In this document: in pieces, positions 22,998 to 31,832 of the stretch
How the letters are laid out: every line of letters starts with the position of its first letter
Numbering within the stretch: position 1 is the stretch's first letter
Origin: Anaerolineae bacterium
Lineage (GTDB): Bacteria; Chloroflexota; Anaerolineae; JAADDB01
Direction of reading: 5' to 3'
Length of the DNA stretch: 40,490 nt
NCBI GenBank assembly: GCA_015490995.1
Contig: WFWT01000032.1
Coordinates: 1-40,490, forward strand
The notes under the pieces: model-generated
Databases searched by the model: none
What the model was told of the DNA's origin: nothing
The model's input: only the letters and a program-made list of their open reading frames with translations
Program-made: the position numbers and the translations under genes

Positions 22998-23438
22998 ATG
23001 AAAATGAAGACCACTTACCAATACAAGGTCGCAGACCTCATCCAGCGGGTGCTCAGTACCGTGCTACAGCAGGAAAGCCGGGACCCGCGGCTGAACGGGG
23101 TCACCATCACCGACGTGGAGGTTTCGCAAGACCTCCAGTTCGCGGACATCTACTACACCCACCTGGGCGACCCCTCCGAAACGCCCGAGGTGCAAAAGGC
23201 ACTGGAACGGGCCGCCGGCTTCCTGCGCACCGAGCTGGCACAACGCACCCGCCTGCGACGGACACCCCAGCTTCGGTTTAAGTTCGATGACACTCTCATC
23301 CGGGCGCGACGCATTGATGAACTGCTGGAACAGATAGCCCGTGAACGGGCCGCCCAAGAAGGCACACGTCCTGCGGAAAACGTCCCCAGCTCAACAGAAC
23401 AATCCACCCAAGAGGAGGATCAACATTCCAATGGATAA
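22998..23438 (+). CDS. rbfA: 30S ribosome-binding factor A
   Basis: 146 residues; the ATG is 3 bases after the infB stop, with GAGGAAGGA inside the end of infB as ribosome site. It has the KH-like RbfA fold: YKVADLIQRVLSTVLQQESRDPRLNGVTITDVEVSQDLQFADIYY, with the C-terminal core FDDTLIRARRIDELL. It is needed for late 16S rRNA 5'-end maturation. The last 35 residues are charged and variable. Its end overlaps the start of nrnA by 8 bases. Confidence 0.95.
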   Translation: MKMKTTYQYKVADLIQRVLSTVLQQESRDPRLNGVTITDVEVSQDLQFADIYYTHLGDPSETPEVQKALERAAGFLRTELAQRTRLRRTPQLRFKFDDTLIRARRIDELLEQIARERAAQEGTRPAENVPSSTEQSTQEEDQHSNG

Positions 23439-24474
23439 AGGTATCACGACACCTACAACCGATCCTAATGGCCTGCTTCCGGTACCGGAGGCCGTCCGAC
23501 AGGCCATAGCACAGGCCGACCGCATTGCGGTCATCACCCACATTGCCCCCGATGGCGATGCCATTGGCTCGTGCCTGGGCCTGACTCACCTCCTTCGCCA
23601 GCAGGGCAAAGAGGTCATCCCTGTATGTCAGGACCCGGTACCCTTCCAGGTCAACTGGTTTCCCGGCCTTGAGGACCTGGTCACCCGGGCCCCAACAGAA
23701 GTTGACCTGTTGATCAGCGTCGATCTCAGCTCACCCGACCGCATGGGCGACGCGTACTCCCCGGAGGAACACGGGCAGATTCCCCTGCTTAACATCGATC
23801 ACCACATTACCAACACATACTTTGGTACCGTCAACTGGGTGGCGCCCGAAGCTGTCGCTGCCTGTGAAATGGTGTACCACATGGCCCAGGCGTTTCATTA
23901 CCCCATCACCCCTCGTATCGCTACCTACCTGCTCACCGGGCTGCTGACCGACACGCGGGGGTTACGTACGGCCAACGTCACCACCCGTGTCCTGCGGGTT
24001 GTGACCCACTTGGTAGAACTGGGAGCCCCCCTGGCCGAAATCATGGAGCAAACCTTTAACCGTAAACCCCTTGCCCTTATTCAGCTGTGGGGCATGGCCC
24101 TTAACCACCTTCGACTGGAACCCGAGGGCATCATCTGGACGCGCATCACTCAAGCGATGCGCGAAGCCGCCGGCTACGAGGAGGAAAACGACGGCGGGTT
24201 GGTGTCCTTCATCCTGGCAGCGGAAGAAGCCCGAGTCAGCGCGGTGTTTATTGAACGGGCTAACGGCCAGGTGAGTGTGAGTCTTCGCTCTCGACCTGGG
24301 TATGACGTTGCCCAAGTGGCCTTTGCGCTGGGCGGTGGTGGTCACCCCCAGGCAGCCGGAGCCACCCTGGAAGGATCGCTGGACGCGGTCCAACACCGGG
24401 TGCTGGAAGCACTGCGCGCCCACCTCCAGGGCGCGCTCCTCCCCTCACCGGTACCCTCATCGGGAGGGAGCTAA
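23431..24474 (+). CDS. nrnA: DHH/DHHA1 phosphoesterase, NrnA-type oligoribonuclease / pAp phosphatase
   Basis: 347 residues from ATG 23431; the AGGAGG upstream is 12 bases away, somewhat long. DHH-domain motifs: IAPDGDAIGS (about 39-47, metal binding), LISVDLSSPDR and NIDHHITN (about 121-128). The DHHA1 domain ends with GGGHPQAAGA (about 301-310). NrnA removes residues from very short RNAs (2-5 nt) and dephosphorylates 3'-phosphoadenosine 5'-phosphate. Position between rbfA and truB is common in many phyla. Dinucleotide hydrolysis (pApA, pGpG) is also possible for this family. Confidence 0.9.
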   Translation: MDKGITTPTTDPNGLLPVPEAVRQAIAQADRIAVITHIAPDGDAIGSCLGLTHLLRQQGKEVIPVCQDPVPFQVNWFPGLEDLVTRAPTEVDLLISVDLSSPDRMGDAYSPEEHGQIPLLNIDHHITNTYFGTVNWVAPEAVAACEMVYHMAQAFHYPITPRIATYLLTGLLTDTRGLRTANVTTRVLRVVTHLVELGAPLAEIMEQTFNRKPLALIQLWGMALNHLRLEPEGIIWTRITQAMREAAGYEEENDGGLVSFILAAEEARVSAVFIERANGQVSVSLRSRPGYDVAQVAFALGGGGHPQAAGATLEGSLDAVQHRVLEALRAHLQGALLPSPVPSSGGS

Positions 24475-24475
24475 C

Positions 24476-25411
24476 GTGGCCAAACGCCAGGCGCGGGTCC
24501 ACGGCCTGTTCGTTATCGACAAACCATCCGGGATAACGTCCCACGACGTGGTGGACGCCATCCGCCGTCGAATCCACGAACGTCAAGTAGGACATGCAGG
24601 AACCCTGGATCCCTTGGCGACGGGAGTATTGGTCGTGGTCGTCGGGGCCGCCACCCGCCTGGCAGAGTTCATGGTAGGACATCCCAAAACATATCGCTTT
24701 ACCGTGCGCTTAGGCGTTCAGACAGACACAGACGACGCGACAGGCCAGGTCGTTGAGGAACGTCCGGTGCCCTCCCTTTCTCCGGAAGCTATTGTGCGCG
24801 TGCTCACCACCTTTGAAGGCACCCAGGAACAGATCCCACCCCGGTACGCGGCCATTCGTCATCAGGGCAAGCGCCTCTACGAATGGGCGCGAGAAGGCGT
24901 CACGGTGGATCCACCCCCCAGGACCGTCACCATTTACCGGCTGACTCTCCTAAAGTGGGAGCCACCGGAACTTCACCTGGAAGTGACCTGCAGCGCGGGC
25001 ACTTATGTGCGCGCGCTGGCGCGTGACCTGGCTCAAGCTCTCGGCACCGTGGGCCACGTCACGGCCTTGCGCCGGATGGCCAGCGGTCCTTTCCGGGTAG
25101 AGGACGCAGTCCCCTTAACCGAGCTCTTGAAGGCCTCCGACTGGCGCCGTTACCTTCATCCCCCGGATGCAGGACTGGTGGACATCAAAATCGTCGATCT
25201 TACCCCTGAGCACGCCCAGGCTATGTTGCACGGTCGTCTCTTACACGGGTTGCCCCCTGGCGACGATGACCAGGCATGGGCACGGGCCTACCTCCACGGC
25301 CATTTCATCGGCATGATCCAGTGGGACGCGCAACAGCACGCCTGGCGTCCTCGCAAAGTATTCCCGGCCCTGATCACACAGGCCATCACGCGGGCCATGA
25401 GCCAACCATAA
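24476..25411 (+). CDS. truB: tRNA pseudouridine(55) synthase
   Basis: 311 residues from GTG 24476, one base after the nrnA stop; GGGAGGGAG lies directly upstream and VAKRQARVHG begins the homologous region. Motifs: GLFVIDKPSGITSHDVV and GHAGTLDPLATGVL with catalytic Asp45, then TYRFTVRLGVQTDTDDATG, QIPPRYAAIRHQGKRLYEWAREG and CSAGTYVRALARDLAQALG. It converts U55 in the T-loop of all elongator tRNAs. A C-terminal PUA-like region of about 70 residues (LTPEHAQAMLHGRLL and on) is present. Confidence 0.95.
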   Translation: MAKRQARVHGLFVIDKPSGITSHDVVDAIRRRIHERQVGHAGTLDPLATGVLVVVVGAATRLAEFMVGHPKTYRFTVRLGVQTDTDDATGQVVEERPVPSLSPEAIVRVLTTFEGTQEQIPPRYAAIRHQGKRLYEWAREGVTVDPPPRTVTIYRLTLLKWEPPELHLEVTCSAGTYVRALARDLAQALGTVGHVTALRRMASGPFRVEDAVPLTELLKASDWRRYLHPPDAGLVDIKIVDLTPEHAQAMLHGRLLHGLPPGDDDQAWARAYLHGHFIGMIQWDAQQHAWRPRKVFPALITQAITRAMSQP

Positions 25412-25432
25412 ACACAACCTTGGACATCGGCC

Positions 25433-26389
25433 ATGCGCATCATACACAACCTGTTTGCGGAACAATTTACCCACCCAACGGCGGTCACCATTGGCAATTT
25501 TGACGGTGTGCACCTGGGCCACCGTCACCTCCTCCAACACGTGGTCAACGATGCTCGACGGCACGGTTGGACACCCACTGTGGTTACCTTTCAACCCCAC
25601 CCGCGACGAGTGCTCCAGCCAGGTGCCCGTATGGTGTACATTTCCTCGTGGGAGGAACGGCTGGCCCTTCTGGAGCAGGCGGGCATAGACCTGGTGGCTG
25701 TGGTGCGCTTCAGCCAGGAGGTAGCCCGCATGCAGGCAAGGGACTTTGTGCGCGCCCTTGTAGAACGCCTACACATGCGTTCCCTCTGGGTCGGACCGGA
25801 CTTTGCCCTGGGATATCAACGAGAGGGCGATGTCCGCTTCCTGAAAAGGGTGGGGCCAGAACTGGGCTTTGCCTTTCACGTCGTTCAACCTTTTACCCTG
25901 GACGGGGAAGAAGTGCGCAGCAGCCGCATCCGGGAACTGATCGGCCAGGCAGGAGATGTGCGAAGCGCGGCGCGGCTGTTGGGGCGCTACTTCTCCCTGA
26001 GCGGGCTGGTTGTTCACGGCGATGGCCGAGGACGGCACATCGGGGTTCCTACCGCCAACCTGGCCATTGCGCCAACCCGTCTCATCCCGGCCAACGGTGT
26101 GTACGCTACCTGGGCCTGGCTCGACGGGCAGCGGTGGCCCAGCGCGACCAACATCGGCGTGCGACCAACCGTCTCCGGCGCAAACCCTACGCGTACGGTG
26201 GAAACCCATATCATCGGGTTTCAGGGCAACATCTACCACCATTACCTACGCCTGGAATTCGTCCAACGCCTGCGTGATGAACAACGTTTCCCTGATCTGA
26301 ACGCCCTGCTTGCTCAAATACGGCGGGACATCACTCAGGCCGCAGCCCTGTTGGCCGAGGAGGAAAGCCATGCCTGGGGAAAGACGTGA
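25433..26389 (+). CDS. ribF: Bifunctional riboflavin kinase/FAD synthetase
   Basis: 318 residues. The N-terminal FMN adenylyltransferase domain has GNFDGVHLGH (21-30), VVTFQPHPRR, WVGPDFALGYQREGDV and VRSSRIRELI. The C-terminal riboflavin kinase domain has HGDGRGRHIGVPTANL and ATNIGVRPTV, then VETHIIGFQGNIY. It makes FMN and FAD from riboflavin and ATP. The truB-ribF pairing is widespread. Its last 20 bases overlap the archease gene. Confidence 0.95.
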   Translation: MRIIHNLFAEQFTHPTAVTIGNFDGVHLGHRHLLQHVVNDARRHGWTPTVVTFQPHPRRVLQPGARMVYISSWEERLALLEQAGIDLVAVVRFSQEVARMQARDFVRALVERLHMRSLWVGPDFALGYQREGDVRFLKRVGPELGFAFHVVQPFTLDGEEVRSSRIRELIGQAGDVRSAARLLGRYFSLSGLVVHGDGRGRHIGVPTANLAIAPTRLIPANGVYATWAWLDGQRWPSATNIGVRPTVSGANPTRTVETHIIGFQGNIYHHYLRLEFVQRLRDEQRFPDLNALLAQIRRDITQAAALLAEEESHAWGKT

Positions 26390-26795
26390 CCCTATCCCCT
26401 ACGAGGAACTGGAACACACCGCTGACTGGAAAATTCGCGTGTGGGGCAAGGACTACGCGGACCTCTTTCGCAACGCGGCCTTGGCCATGTATGCGATGAT
26501 GGGTCACAAAGAGCAAACCGGCCCCGAAATCACACGCCATATCACCGTGGAGGCTGTGGATTACCCCTCGCTCCTGGTAGCGTGGCTCAACGAGCTGCTG
26601 TTTTACTCAGAGGTGTACGGAGAACTTTTCACCGACGTGGAAGTACACGACATTCGACCAGAATATCTACGGGCCACCGTGCGCGGCTTTGTGGGCCGCG
26701 CGGAGATCTCCAAAATAAAAGCAGCGACCTATCACGAACTGGCACTTCAGGAAACCGCAGACGGTGTCGAAGCCACCATCGTGTTCGACGTGTAA
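26370..26795 (+). CDS. Archease (RNA ligase cofactor family)
   Basis: 141 residues from ATG 26370, with GAGGAGGAAAG upstream inside the end of ribF. Family features: YEELEHTADWKIRVWGKDYADLFRNAALAMYAMM at the N-terminus, WLNELLFYSE in the middle, the K.ATYHEL phrase and an acidic C-terminus ending VFDV. Archease drives multiple-turnover guanylation of the tRNA-splicing ligase RtcB and binds divalent metal through conserved Asp residues. No rtcB is in the window. It is the last gene of the nusA-ribF block and lies 2.7 kb before an unrelated Pab1020-type RNA ligase operon. Confidence 0.9.
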   Translation: MPGERRDPIPYEELEHTADWKIRVWGKDYADLFRNAALAMYAMMGHKEQTGPEITRHITVEAVDYPSLLVAWLNELLFYSEVYGELFTDVEVHDIRPEYLRATVRGFVGRAEISKIKAATYHELALQETADGVEATIVFDV

Positions 26796-28524: not shown

Positions 28525-29511
28525 GTGAAACATATGGGCACACCCGCGCAAGATACACAACATCAGCACACCACTCTCCAGGGTGATGTTGTCACCGCCT
28601 CCGCCCCCGCCAAGGTTATCCTCTGTGGCGAGCACGCGGTGGTCTACGGGCGTCCTGCTATCGCCGTCCCGGTTCACGGCATCCGAGCACAAGCTACCTT
28701 CACGGCAGGATCGGAACCCGGGGTCCGCGTGCACCTGCCCGACATTGATCAAACCTGGGTATGGCCTCCCGGACCGCCTGACCATCCCCTCGTGGCCATC
28801 TTGGAACACTTTGCTCAGCAGGGCGGCCGTCCTCTTCAGGGCACGTTACAGGTGCGTTCCACCATTCCCATCGCTGCCGGTCTGGGAAGCAGCGCGGCGG
28901 TAGCCGTAGCCGTCGTACGGGTGTTGGCCCGCGCCCTAAACCTTTCCCTCACCCCCGCGCAGGTCTCCGCCATCGCCTACAAGGCGGAAACGATAACCCA
29001 CGGCACACCCAGCGGGGTGGACAATACCGTCATCGCCTATGAACAGCCCGTGTGGTTTGTCAGAGGTGGCCCCCCTGAGCCCTTTTCCATTGATCGGCCC
29101 TTTACCTTGATCATCGCCCACAGCGGCATTCAGGCTTCTACCCGGGAGGTCGTCGCGGGTGTACGGGCCCGCTGGCAAGAAGATCGGTCTCGCTATGAAG
29201 CCATCTTCGACGCTATTGCCGATCTTGTACATCGCGTGCGTGACGCTTTAGAACGTGGTGCCATTGAGGCAGCGGGAAGGCTTATGACGGAAAACCACCG
29301 CCAATTGCAAGCCCTTGGCGTCTCCATTCCCCGGCTGGATGCCATGGTCCAGGCAGCGTTGGCCGCCGGCGCGTGGGGAGCCAAGTTGGCAGGTGCAGGC
29401 TGTGGTGGTAATATAGTGATCCTTACCCCAAAGGAACGGGTTCAACCTATCACAGTAGCGGTGCGCCGGGCGGGCGCTCGCGACATTTGGGTAACGACCG
29501 TGGAGACGTAG
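28525..29511 (+). CDS. Mevalonate kinase (GHMP kinase family)
   Basis: 328 residues from GTG 28525 (GCAGG six bases upstream); ATG 28534 is an equal candidate. GHMP signatures: VTASAPAKVILCGEHAVVYGRPAIA, the ATP loop PIAAGLGSSAA (115-125), GTPSGVDN with catalytic Asp166, and the C-terminal GAKLAGAGCGGNIVIL. It phosphorylates mevalonate on the route to isopentenyl diphosphate, a pathway found in archaea and in part of the Chloroflexota. No other isoprenoid gene is adjacent; the following three genes concern RNA. The promoter upstream is strong, and the gap to the next gene is 11 bases. Confidence 0.9.
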   Translation: MKHMGTPAQDTQHQHTTLQGDVVTASAPAKVILCGEHAVVYGRPAIAVPVHGIRAQATFTAGSEPGVRVHLPDIDQTWVWPPGPPDHPLVAILEHFAQQGGRPLQGTLQVRSTIPIAAGLGSSAAVAVAVVRVLARALNLSLTPAQVSAIAYKAETITHGTPSGVDNTVIAYEQPVWFVRGGPPEPFSIDRPFTLIIAHSGIQASTREVVAGVRARWQEDRSRYEAIFDAIADLVHRVRDALERGAIEAAGRLMTENHRQLQALGVSIPRLDAMVQAALAAGAWGAKLAGAGCGGNIVILTPKERVQPITVAVRRAGARDIWVTTVET

Positions 29512-29522
29512 GAGATGGCGTG

Positions 29523-30140
29523 ATGACCCAAACCCACCCCGCCGATCCCGCCCATACACTGGTCATTGACACCAGTATCTTTGTCAACCCAGATACCCAG
29601 ACCCTGTTGGGCCCCTCGGTGGACGCGGCGGTGGAAACCTTTCTCGCTCTGGCCCGGCACCACCAATTACACATTTACATTCCGACCAGTATCTTTCGGG
29701 AAATGGGGCACTTTGTTTCCCCTCACGTGTTGGACAAACTCCGCACCTACGCGACGGTCCGCTCACCGGACCTGTTTAACTTACACGTGCCCGCGGCCGT
29801 ACTTCACTTCTTCATTCGTGACATTCGGCAACGCATCGACCGAGGACTGCGGGTGGCCGAACAGGCCGCGCGCGCTGAAAATAGCGATGAAACCCTCCGC
29901 CACCTGCGTAAAAAATACCGGGAAGTGGTGCGGACCGGCATCGTGGACAGCGTCGAAGACCTCGACGTGGTGCTGCTGGCCAAGGAAACCGGAGGCACCA
30001 TTCTGACCGCGGACGAAGGTATACGCAACATGGCCCAGGTGCTGGGCATCCAGGTCCTCTCGGTACGTGAATTTCTGTTGAAATTCACGCAGGCGGAGAT
30101 GAACATCCACAGCGAACACTCGACGGACACGCCACCATGA
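29523..30140 (+). CDS. RNA ligase partner protein, MJ1237-type PIN domain nuclease
   Basis: 205 residues from ATG 29523, with AGGAG eight bases upstream. The PIN fold shows its four acidic residues: Asp16 (LVIDTSIF), Glu60 (SIFREMGHF), Asp148 (VEDLDVVLLAKE) and Asp164 (TILTADEGIRNMA), so nuclease activity is likely retained. The arrangement, length and tight coupling to the next gene (ATGA overlap at 30137-30140) fit the RNA ligase partner family that co-occurs with Pab1020-type ligases, mainly in thermophiles. The substrate is unknown; a PIN domain cuts single-stranded RNA and would supply ends for the ligase. Confidence 0.88.
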   Translation: MTQTHPADPAHTLVIDTSIFVNPDTQTLLGPSVDAAVETFLALARHHQLHIYIPTSIFREMGHFVSPHVLDKLRTYATVRSPDLFNLHVPAAVLHFFIRDIRQRIDRGLRVAEQAARAENSDETLRHLRKKYREVVRTGIVDSVEDLDVVLLAKETGGTILTADEGIRNMAQVLGIQVLSVREFLLKFTQAEMNIHSEHSTDTPP

Positions 30141-31228
30141 GGGTTGTACAACAGCACACAGAAGAACGGTCTTTTCAAAGCGTACGATACATTCGCATCA
30201 CCGACGATACCCCCACGCACTCACGCGGCACGGTGATCTTTCCCGACGCTGTGGATCGCGAGGGGCATATTTTCACGGTATGGGGATTTCCTCGCATCAA
30301 GCGCATCTACGTGTTCAAGCGCGGCATTCAACGCTATTTCAAGGATGCCCCCTTTGTGGCGGAGGAGAAAATCGACGGATATAACGTGCGCCTGGTGTCA
30401 GTCCAGGGACGTTTGTTGGCCCTCACGCGAGGGGGCTTTGTCTGTCCCTACACTACCGAGTGGGCGGAAACCTGGGCCGAGGAGATGGGGTTGCAGGAAT
30501 TTTTTCAAGATTATCCTGATTACGTCTTGTGTGGTGAGGCTATCGGAGCCAGCCCGTATAACGTCCAACGCATTTACGACGTGCCGCCGGGACTCCATTT
30601 TCGCCTGTTTGACATCGCGGACTATCGGGGCCGCTTGATGCCCCCCGAACAGAAATACCTGCTCGCCGCGCAGTACGGCATCCCCACCGTTCCTCAGTTG
30701 GGCCGGTTTGACGTGGGTCAACTGGCCGCACTGAGAGACATTCTTTTAGAGATCAACGCTCGCGGGGGCGAGGGTGTAGTCCTTAAAAGCTTGGATGGCA
30801 CACGTCTGGTAAAGTATGTCACCCCGCTTTCCGACCTGACGGACATCCAGGACAATTTGGGCGTTTTGTTCGACGTGAACAGCGGCTATTTCACCAACCG
30901 CTTGCTGCGGGTGGCCCTCTTCGTGCAGGAATTCGGGCTGGACCCTGAAGTGTACGCCCAGCACATTGGCCAGGCCATCCTGGCGGGGTTCTCCCCCTTG
31001 CAGGACTTTCACCAAGCTGCCGAAGAATATACCATCCTGGTCCGCAACATCACCACCTGGCACGCGCTGCGAGCGCTGGTCAGTGATCGGGTCCGCGTAG
31101 AGGAAGTTTACACCCGTCCGGTGGTTCTGAACCGCCGCCCGTACATTCAGGTAGGGTTTAAACGGGTATTTCAGAAGAGTACCAAGCGATTCCGCACCCT
31201 CCTCAAGGGGTATGGCCATTATGACTGA
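30137..31228 (+). CDS. ATP-dependent RNA ligase, Pab1020 (Rnl3) family
   Basis: 363 residues. Nucleotidyltransferase motifs: motif I EEKIDGYNVRL, with Lys78 as the adenylated residue; LCGEAIG around Glu134; motif IV GGEGVVLK around Glu212; motif V LVKYV around Lys226. The N-terminal segment (about 1-70) and the C-terminal helical region (about 240-363, FDVNSGYFTNRLLRVALFVQEFGL) match the extra domains of the Pyrococcus abyssi enzyme, which dimerises and can circularise RNA by joining 5'-phosphate and 3'-OH ends. In bacteria the family is rare and mostly thermophilic. It is tightly packed between the PIN partner (4-base overlap) and thpR (17-base overlap), so the three are surely co-translated. 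The natural RNA substrate is not known. Confidence 0.92.
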   Translation: MRVVQQHTEERSFQSVRYIRITDDTPTHSRGTVIFPDAVDREGHIFTVWGFPRIKRIYVFKRGIQRYFKDAPFVAEEKIDGYNVRLVSVQGRLLALTRGGFVCPYTTEWAETWAEEMGLQEFFQDYPDYVLCGEAIGASPYNVQRIYDVPPGLHFRLFDIADYRGRLMPPEQKYLLAAQYGIPTVPQLGRFDVGQLAALRDILLEINARGGEGVVLKSLDGTRLVKYVTPLSDLTDIQDNLGVLFDVNSGYFTNRLLRVALFVQEFGLDPEVYAQHIGQAILAGFSPLQDFHQAAEEYTILVRNITTWHALRALVSDRVRVEEVYTRPVVLNRRPYIQVGFKRVFQKSTKRFRTLLKGYGHYD

Positions 31229-31832
31229 ACATACTTCGGGGCACGCGCCCTACTGGCGCTTGTTCTGGGCAATTCCTCTGCCGGGAGAACTGCACGAAGC
31301 CATCGCGGCCATCCAAATGGAACTGGCGCGCAAGATGCCGCTGGATGCAGTCCGGTGGATCCCGCCGGTCAACGTGCACTTGACCCTCACGTTTCTGGGC
31401 AACTGGCCTCAGGGGAGCGTCCCCCGGCTCGCGGCCAGCGTCGAGGAAGCCACCCGGAAAGTTCGCCCATTCCACCTGCGCCTCAGCAACCTGGGGGTCT
31501 TCCCCCACGTCCGTCACCCTCGCGTCATCTGGCTGGGTGTAGAAGGGGAATTGAACACGCTGCGAAAACTCCAAGAAGCCGTAGCCCAGGCGATGGTACA
31601 ACACGGATGGCAGCCGGACAGCCGACCTTACACACCTCACCTGACCATCGGTCGCGTACGAAAAGGGCTCAGCCGCACTACCCTCTCCGAGATTGGCCGG
31701 ATTGTGGAACGGACGAAGGTGGCATCCTTTGGCGGCCACCAGGTGCGGGAAATCATCCTGTTCAAGAGCGATCTCCGTCCTTCGGGCGCGGTGTACACCC
31801 CTGTCTCGCGCATTAAACTGACCGCCGGATGA
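31212..31832 (+). CDS. thpR: RNA 2',3'-cyclic phosphodiesterase (2'-5' RNA ligase family)
   Basis: 206 residues; ATG 31212 lies inside the ligase gene, and ATG 31221 has better spacing to AAGGGG. The 2H phosphoesterase fold has both HxTx motifs: His56-Leu-Thr58 (NVHLTLTFLG) and His143-Leu-Thr145 (TPHLTIGRV). The family opens 2',3'-cyclic phosphates to 2'-phosphates and can join or split 2'-5' linkages. Placement directly after an RNA ligase and a nuclease suggests end repair before sealing. However, a 2'-phosphate product would not be a standard 3'-OH substrate, so the order of action is open. Confidence 0.93.
   Translation: MAIMTEHTSGHAPYWRLFWAIPLPGELHEAIAAIQMELARKMPLDAVRWIPPVNVHLTLTFLGNWPQGSVPRLAASVEEATRKVRPFHLRLSNLGVFPHVRHPRVIWLGVEGELNTLRKLQEAVAQAMVQHGWQPDSRPYTPHLTIGRVRKGLSRTTLSEIGRIVERTKVASFGGHQVREIILFKSDLRPSGAVYTPVSRIKLTAG

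Follow-up and report, generated by a model that had tools for sequence, protein, structure and literature searches.

A tandem HARP-Rnl3 gene pair probably replaced a UbiD-family decarboxylase gene between mevalonate kinase and ThpR in an Anaerolineae lineage

The window, which is the whole 40,490-nt stretch of Anaerolineae DNA analysed here, encodes a protein-only RNase P (HARP) and an RNA ligase (Rnl3) between mevalonate kinase (MK) and the phosphoesterase ThpR. We consider it probable that a mobile HARP-Rnl3 cut-and-seal module replaced a UbiD-family decarboxylase gene between MK and ThpR, and that ThpR was already resident there. The core of this finding, the link between HARP and Rnl3, is already known and was published in 2025. 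New here, as judged from sequence comparison, is the extension of the tandem HARP→Rnl3 arrangement to a clade that spans several phyla.

The four ORFs are all on the plus strand and are tightly packed between positions 28525 and 31832, as follows.

28525..29511, plus strand: mevalonate kinase (MK), operon gene 1, resident context; TIGR00549, 243.9 bits, above cut-off
29523..30140, plus strand: HARP (PIN protein); TIGR03875, 160.9 bits, and PF08745, 158.1 bits
30137..30140, plus strand: 4-nt overlap ATGA of the HARP and ligase genes, read from the sequence and typical of translational coupling
30137..31228, plus strand: Rnl3, ATP-dependent RNA ligase of the Pab1020 family; TIGR01209, 255.5 bits
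31221..31832, plus strand: ThpR, LigT-type 2H phosphoesterase, downstream resident; TIGR02258, 149.1 bits

Each of the TIGR00549, TIGR03875, TIGR01209 and TIGR02258 matches was above the curated cut-off of its model. For HARP, the ATG at 29523, which lies 11 nt past the MK stop and after a ggag, is a more likely start than the TTG at 29487 in the program's ORF list, with which HARP would overlap MK. ThpR more likely starts at the ATG at 31221 (MTE...), since all three relatives start at the matching residue, and its overlap with the ligase gene would then be 8 nt. A preliminary description had given overlaps of 4 and 17 bases; the first is the ATGA above, whereas the second came from the ATG at 31212 in the ORF list. 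That description had also stated that the active-site residues of all three proteins are kept, and we found the ligase motifs, the HARP Asp and Arg residues and the ThpR motifs in place. The order MK-HARP-Rnl3-ThpR is not due to chance, for all four HARP-positive family members share it, with proteins 53-69% identical and differing flanking genes. Upstream in the window, NrnA-like, TruB and RibF genes (23341-26389, plus strand), separated by overlaps or short gaps, lead into an archease gene (26310-26795, plus strand; PF01951, 121 bits) 2 kb before the operon, which makes this an RNA-metabolism-rich stretch. Archease is the usual partner of RtcB, the gene for which is on a separate contig of this genome (G000:C11:1211-2515).

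By its sequence, the PIN protein is a HARP. It scored above the PIN_5/TIGR03875 cut-off, its best PDB match was a HARP, and all seven matches in a PDB sequence search at the default threshold were 'RNA-free ribonuclease P', including 7e8j (6.6e-37) and Aquifex Aq880 (7f3e, 2.3e-35), so the earlier statement that this PIN partner has no described function was wrong. When aligned with 57 locus HARPs, the window protein has the Asp equivalents of Aq880 D7, D138 and D142 and the SADEG Asp; Aq880 D161 (PMC8266387) maps one position off in the alignment numbering, and the neighbouring Asp is present in the window protein. The spike-helix Arg residues needed for pre-tRNA (Aq880 R125, R129; PbHARP R116, R138, R142) were also found, including the tRNA-elbow equivalents of Aq880 R125 and R129, the loss of which strongly reduces or abolishes pre-tRNA cleavage (PMC8266387). 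The catalytic Asp residues and R125/R129 are invariant or nearly so across the alignment. The spike-helix hairpin of the HARPs in the tandem clade described below (window 29860-29910) is ∼3-8 residues shorter in the alignment than that of HARPs from Aquificaceae and Thermococcus, and this may affect how RNA is recognised.

The ligase was assigned to Rnl3 by its TIGR01209 score above the cut-off and its C-terminal Lig_C domain; the match to PF18330 ('Ligase Pab1020 C-terminal') was weak, yet above cut-off. Its PDB matches included 8uce (1.8e-64) and PAB1020 (2vug, 6.4e-55). Motif I reads EEKIDGYN, the KxDG nucleotidyl-lysine and motifs Ia, IV and V were recovered in the alignment, and the RGG, EGVVLKS and KYVTP motifs are also intact. 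Joining of 5'-phosphate to 3'-OH ends, or circularisation, is known from homologues of this ligase. Rnl3 is the only PF09414 match genome-wide, and just 1 of 400 sampled genomes of the phylum had an Rnl3 above the cut-off.

HARP is not the sole RNase P of this genome, because both components of the RNA-based enzyme are present: rnpB matched RF00010 over the full model length (73 bits, E 3.5e-22, below the Rfam gathering score of 100) and rnpA scored 96.6 bits. The housekeeping RNase P of the cell is the RNA enzyme, and HARP is an extra. RtcB is encoded as well. At L013:1501-2576, a cluster of six tRNA genes lies within 25 nt after rnpB.

Seshadri & Gopalan (mBio 2025) reported the co-occurrence of HARP and Rnl3 and proposed a process-then-circularise role for them (PMC12153264). 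According to the available text of that paper, Rnl3 is co-present in 89% of HARP genomes, and both genes lie within 5 kb of each other, typically bidirectionally, in ∼80% of the bacterial ligase-positive HARP genomes; tandem pairs are rare, with 10 cases including one bacterium. Its main text makes no mention of ThpR, LigT or Chloroflexota. With its 4-nt overlap, the window pair falls within the published adjacency criterion (<5 kb).

We scanned 84,980 species genomes for relatives of the ligase and obtained 310, the best 80 of which were taken for loci and trees; three were the window's own relatives, and the remaining 77 were loci outside its family. HARP was located ≤300 bp from Rnl3 in 50 of these 77 loci (best 80 of 310), 11 of them tandem with HARP before the ligase and 39 convergent, and three further loci had HARP elsewhere in the locus. 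The adjacency is not obligatory, given that 20 of the 77 loci had Rnl3 without HARP in the examined stretch, where a contig end was not obviously the cause. The co-directional tandem arrangement was found at the 11 loci, all non-Chloroflexota, and in the four genomes of the window's family. Tandem loci formed one clade in each of the two trees, ligase and HARP (SH-aLRT 99 in both), with matching main subclades, comprising the Chloroflexota family, HR37, Dadabacteria, Desulfobacterota-type and Spirochaetota MAGs, and one Spirochaetaceae pair was nested among Desulfobacterota in both trees. One tandem clade and shared cross-phylum placement argue that HARP and Rnl3 were inherited or transferred as a unit, although the trees were quick ones built without bootstrap and many loci came from metagenome bins, where a mis-binned contig could mimic transfer. 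In a census of 84 neighbouring proteins, the neighbours of HARP-Rnl3 differed among loci and no third gene recurred, and Rfam scans of the window and six HARP-Rnl3 loci gave tRNAs only and no RNA common to the surroundings of the pair. In a Deltaproteobacteria MAG, RtcA (RNA 3'-terminal phosphate cyclase) is convergent with Rnl3 and ∼20 nt from its end (L037:11112-12149, minus strand). On a WOR-3 contig (L082:1719-5247), ThpR precedes Rnl3 by ∼1.8 kb, and the 8 kb examined contain no HARP; the stretch of its close relative L080 begins too near Rnl3 to reveal an upstream ThpR.

These results bear on a reading that we regard as unlikely, in which HARP backs up the RNA-based RNase P, Rnl3 repairs RNA in general, and the two serve stress tolerance on separate RNA targets. 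It agrees with the RNA-based RNase P in the genome and with the archaeal HARP knockouts that had no growth phenotype, and the available text of PMC12153264 and PMC10941002 leaves this option open. Translational coupling and the joint cross-phylum transfer of exactly two genes are, however, hard to explain in that way.

ThpR, the sole copy in the genome, has intact HLTL and HLTI motifs. It stands beside the ligase in all four HARP-positive genomes of the family but at none of the 77 other Rnl3 loci (best 80 of 310), and at least 191 of the 219 class genomes have it, independently of Rnl3. The window's GTDB family has six genomes, and the four that carry HARP and Rnl3 all have them as MK-HARP-Rnl3-ThpR (in G001, ThpR is split by a contig end, its remainder lying on contig C393). 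Of the two HARP-negative members, G003 has MK-UbiD-ThpR with overlapping genes and G004 has MK-UbiD with ThpR at another site, so that the old MK-UbiD-ThpR operon was not universal. Positions of ThpR and MK were compared by hand in the 219 class genomes, and the resulting counts are lower bounds. At least five further co-directional MK...ThpR pairs with a gap of ∼1.5 kb were found, in families f20 (two), f23, f31 and f32, and the gap gene was UbiD in all five. MK-UbiD-ThpR was accordingly present at no fewer than six HARP-negative loci in five families, headed by the same MK gene, and neither HARP nor Rnl3 was found in these six genomes. HARP-Rnl3 occupies the exact UbiD slot between MK and ThpR. 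The operon UbiD, 73% identical between the two HARP-negative family genomes, was absent from all four HARP-positive ones, where only a ∼30% identical paralog remains. A UbiD-family decarboxylase gene overlaps or directly follows MK in many Anaerolineae (L140:6295-7653, L141, L144-L149) and possibly has an isoprenoid- or quinone-related role there.

The simplest history is that HARP-Rnl3 replaced UbiD inside an older MK-UbiD-ThpR operon, a direction we infer from the wider distribution of the latter. Because the slot exists without HARP-Rnl3 and ThpR is missing from the 77 other loci, ThpR is probably a resident neighbour and not a recruited third component. The preliminary description had proposed a three-part RNA system; its nuclease-ligase pair stands, with 50 of the 77 loci adjacent and one tandem clade, whereas the inclusion of ThpR rested on an adjacency that is conserved in one family only. 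The neighbourhood test that it had set for ThpR fails outside this family, and class genomes lacking HARP and Rnl3 have the same ThpR slot. Its suggestion that the link to MK may be mere shared transcription is borne out by the older operon context. The ThpR tree was poorly resolved, with the ThpRs of HARP-positive genomes on a long stem and weakly grouped with other families; their grouping with those of G003 and G004 was not rejected (p-AU 0.388), so this tree does not contradict the replacement but is too weak to prove that they are vertically inherited copies. We also considered the arrival of ThpR together with HARP-Rnl3 and judged it unlikely, as the 11 other tandem loci have no ThpR. 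Among plasmids, a search for relatives of ThpR yielded distant matches only.

In the replacement that we favour, HARP-Rnl3 would be a horizontally mobile two-gene module in tandem, translationally coupled form, swapped in for the UbiD-family decarboxylase of the MK-UbiD-ThpR operon in an ancestor shared by two genera of the window's family. Cleavage by RNase P gives rise to 5'-phosphate and 3'-OH ends. MthRnl, an Rnl3, joins 5'-phosphate to 3'-OH (PMC5599603), so the ends left by HARP would suit Rnl3 without a healing step, and most likely HARP makes the ends that Rnl3 seals. HARP would cut structured tRNA-like or other RNA precursors to give a product with a 5'-phosphate and a leader with a 3'-OH, and Rnl3, which requires both ends, would seal or circularise selected RNAs. 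Archaeal C/D-box RNAs are not expected as substrates in the window's bacterium. LigT/ThpR converts 2',3'-cyclic phosphate to 2'-phosphate (PMC5283653); on chemical grounds, 2',3'-cyclic phosphates appear to be the product of no HARP step, and the conversion is not known to be required anywhere in the reactions of HARP and Rnl3. The one bridge between the chemistries of Rnl3 and ThpR would be the 2',3'-cyclic ends that MthRnl makes in removing a 3'-terminal adenosine (PMC5599603).

A three-component repair or circularisation system, in which HARP cuts, ThpR resolves 2',3'-cyclic phosphates and Rnl3 seals, seems improbable to us. The overlapping HARP-Rnl3-ThpR genes of the four family genomes speak for it, as do the 3'-deadenylation and 3'-phosphate cyclisation by which MthRnl makes cyclic ends that ThpR could open (PMC5599603), the long ThpR stem, which would fit a role change, and the RtcA gene adjoining Rnl3 at one other locus (L037). 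Against these stand the absence of ThpR next to the pair at the other loci among the best 80, its slot without HARP-Rnl3 in several families and its unlinked presence across the class; moreover, HARP leaves 3'-OH, and the 2'-phosphate product of LigT is not a known Rnl3 substrate. A slightly less probable variant is later co-option, in which HARP-Rnl3 captured the resident ThpR to open 2',3'-cyclic ends made by Rnl3, possibly as an RNA end-editing cycle of all three proteins with tRNA CCA ends as target; the long ThpR stem in HARP-positive genomes would then be the trace of a role change. We give very little credence to a toxin-antitoxin-like pair, proposed in the available text of PMC12153264, in which HARP damages tRNA as a VapC-like PIN protein and Rnl3 repairs it: PIN_5 does belong to a VapC-like group and the coupled two-gene operon has spread horizontally, but the RNase P-specific elbow Arg residues are conserved in HARPs, a Thermococcus ligase knockout had no growth defect (PMC12153264, available text) and PADLOC gave no defence match. 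A defence-system reading was dropped after the same PADLOC search.

The HARP-Rnl3 pair bears on why cells with an RNA-based RNase P retain a protein RNase P and on what bacterial RNA ligases circularise. The movement of a coupled HARP-Rnl3 operon from phylum to phylum, both genes together, is strong evidence of joint action, and tandem HARP-Rnl3 bacteria lacking archaeal C/D-box RNAs are systems for a substrate search. The UbiD replacement also cautions that gene neighbourhood alone is no proof of function, since the tempting ThpR was probably there first.

Among known systems, Aquifex Aq880 (PDB 7f3e) has the PIN_5 family, catalytic Asp residues and elbow Arg residues in common with the window HARP, the genome of which additionally carries an RNA-based RNase P. 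The ligase has TIGR01209, all motifs and the C-terminal domain in common with the Pab1020/Rnl3 ligases (PDB 2vug, 8uce; MthRnl, 5d1o), but is bacterial and 35-38% identical to the two aligned archaeal enzymes of the Pab1020 family. Compared with the MK-UbiD-ThpR operon of Anaerolineae, the first and last genes are alike and the genes overlap or are closely spaced, while the window's clade has HARP-Rnl3 in place of UbiD. The HARP-Rnl3 pairs described in the available text of PMC12153264 involve the same two families in close genomic linkage and are mostly bidirectional, whereas the pair here is tandem and overlapping inside an MK operon and belongs to a tandem clade that crosses phyla.
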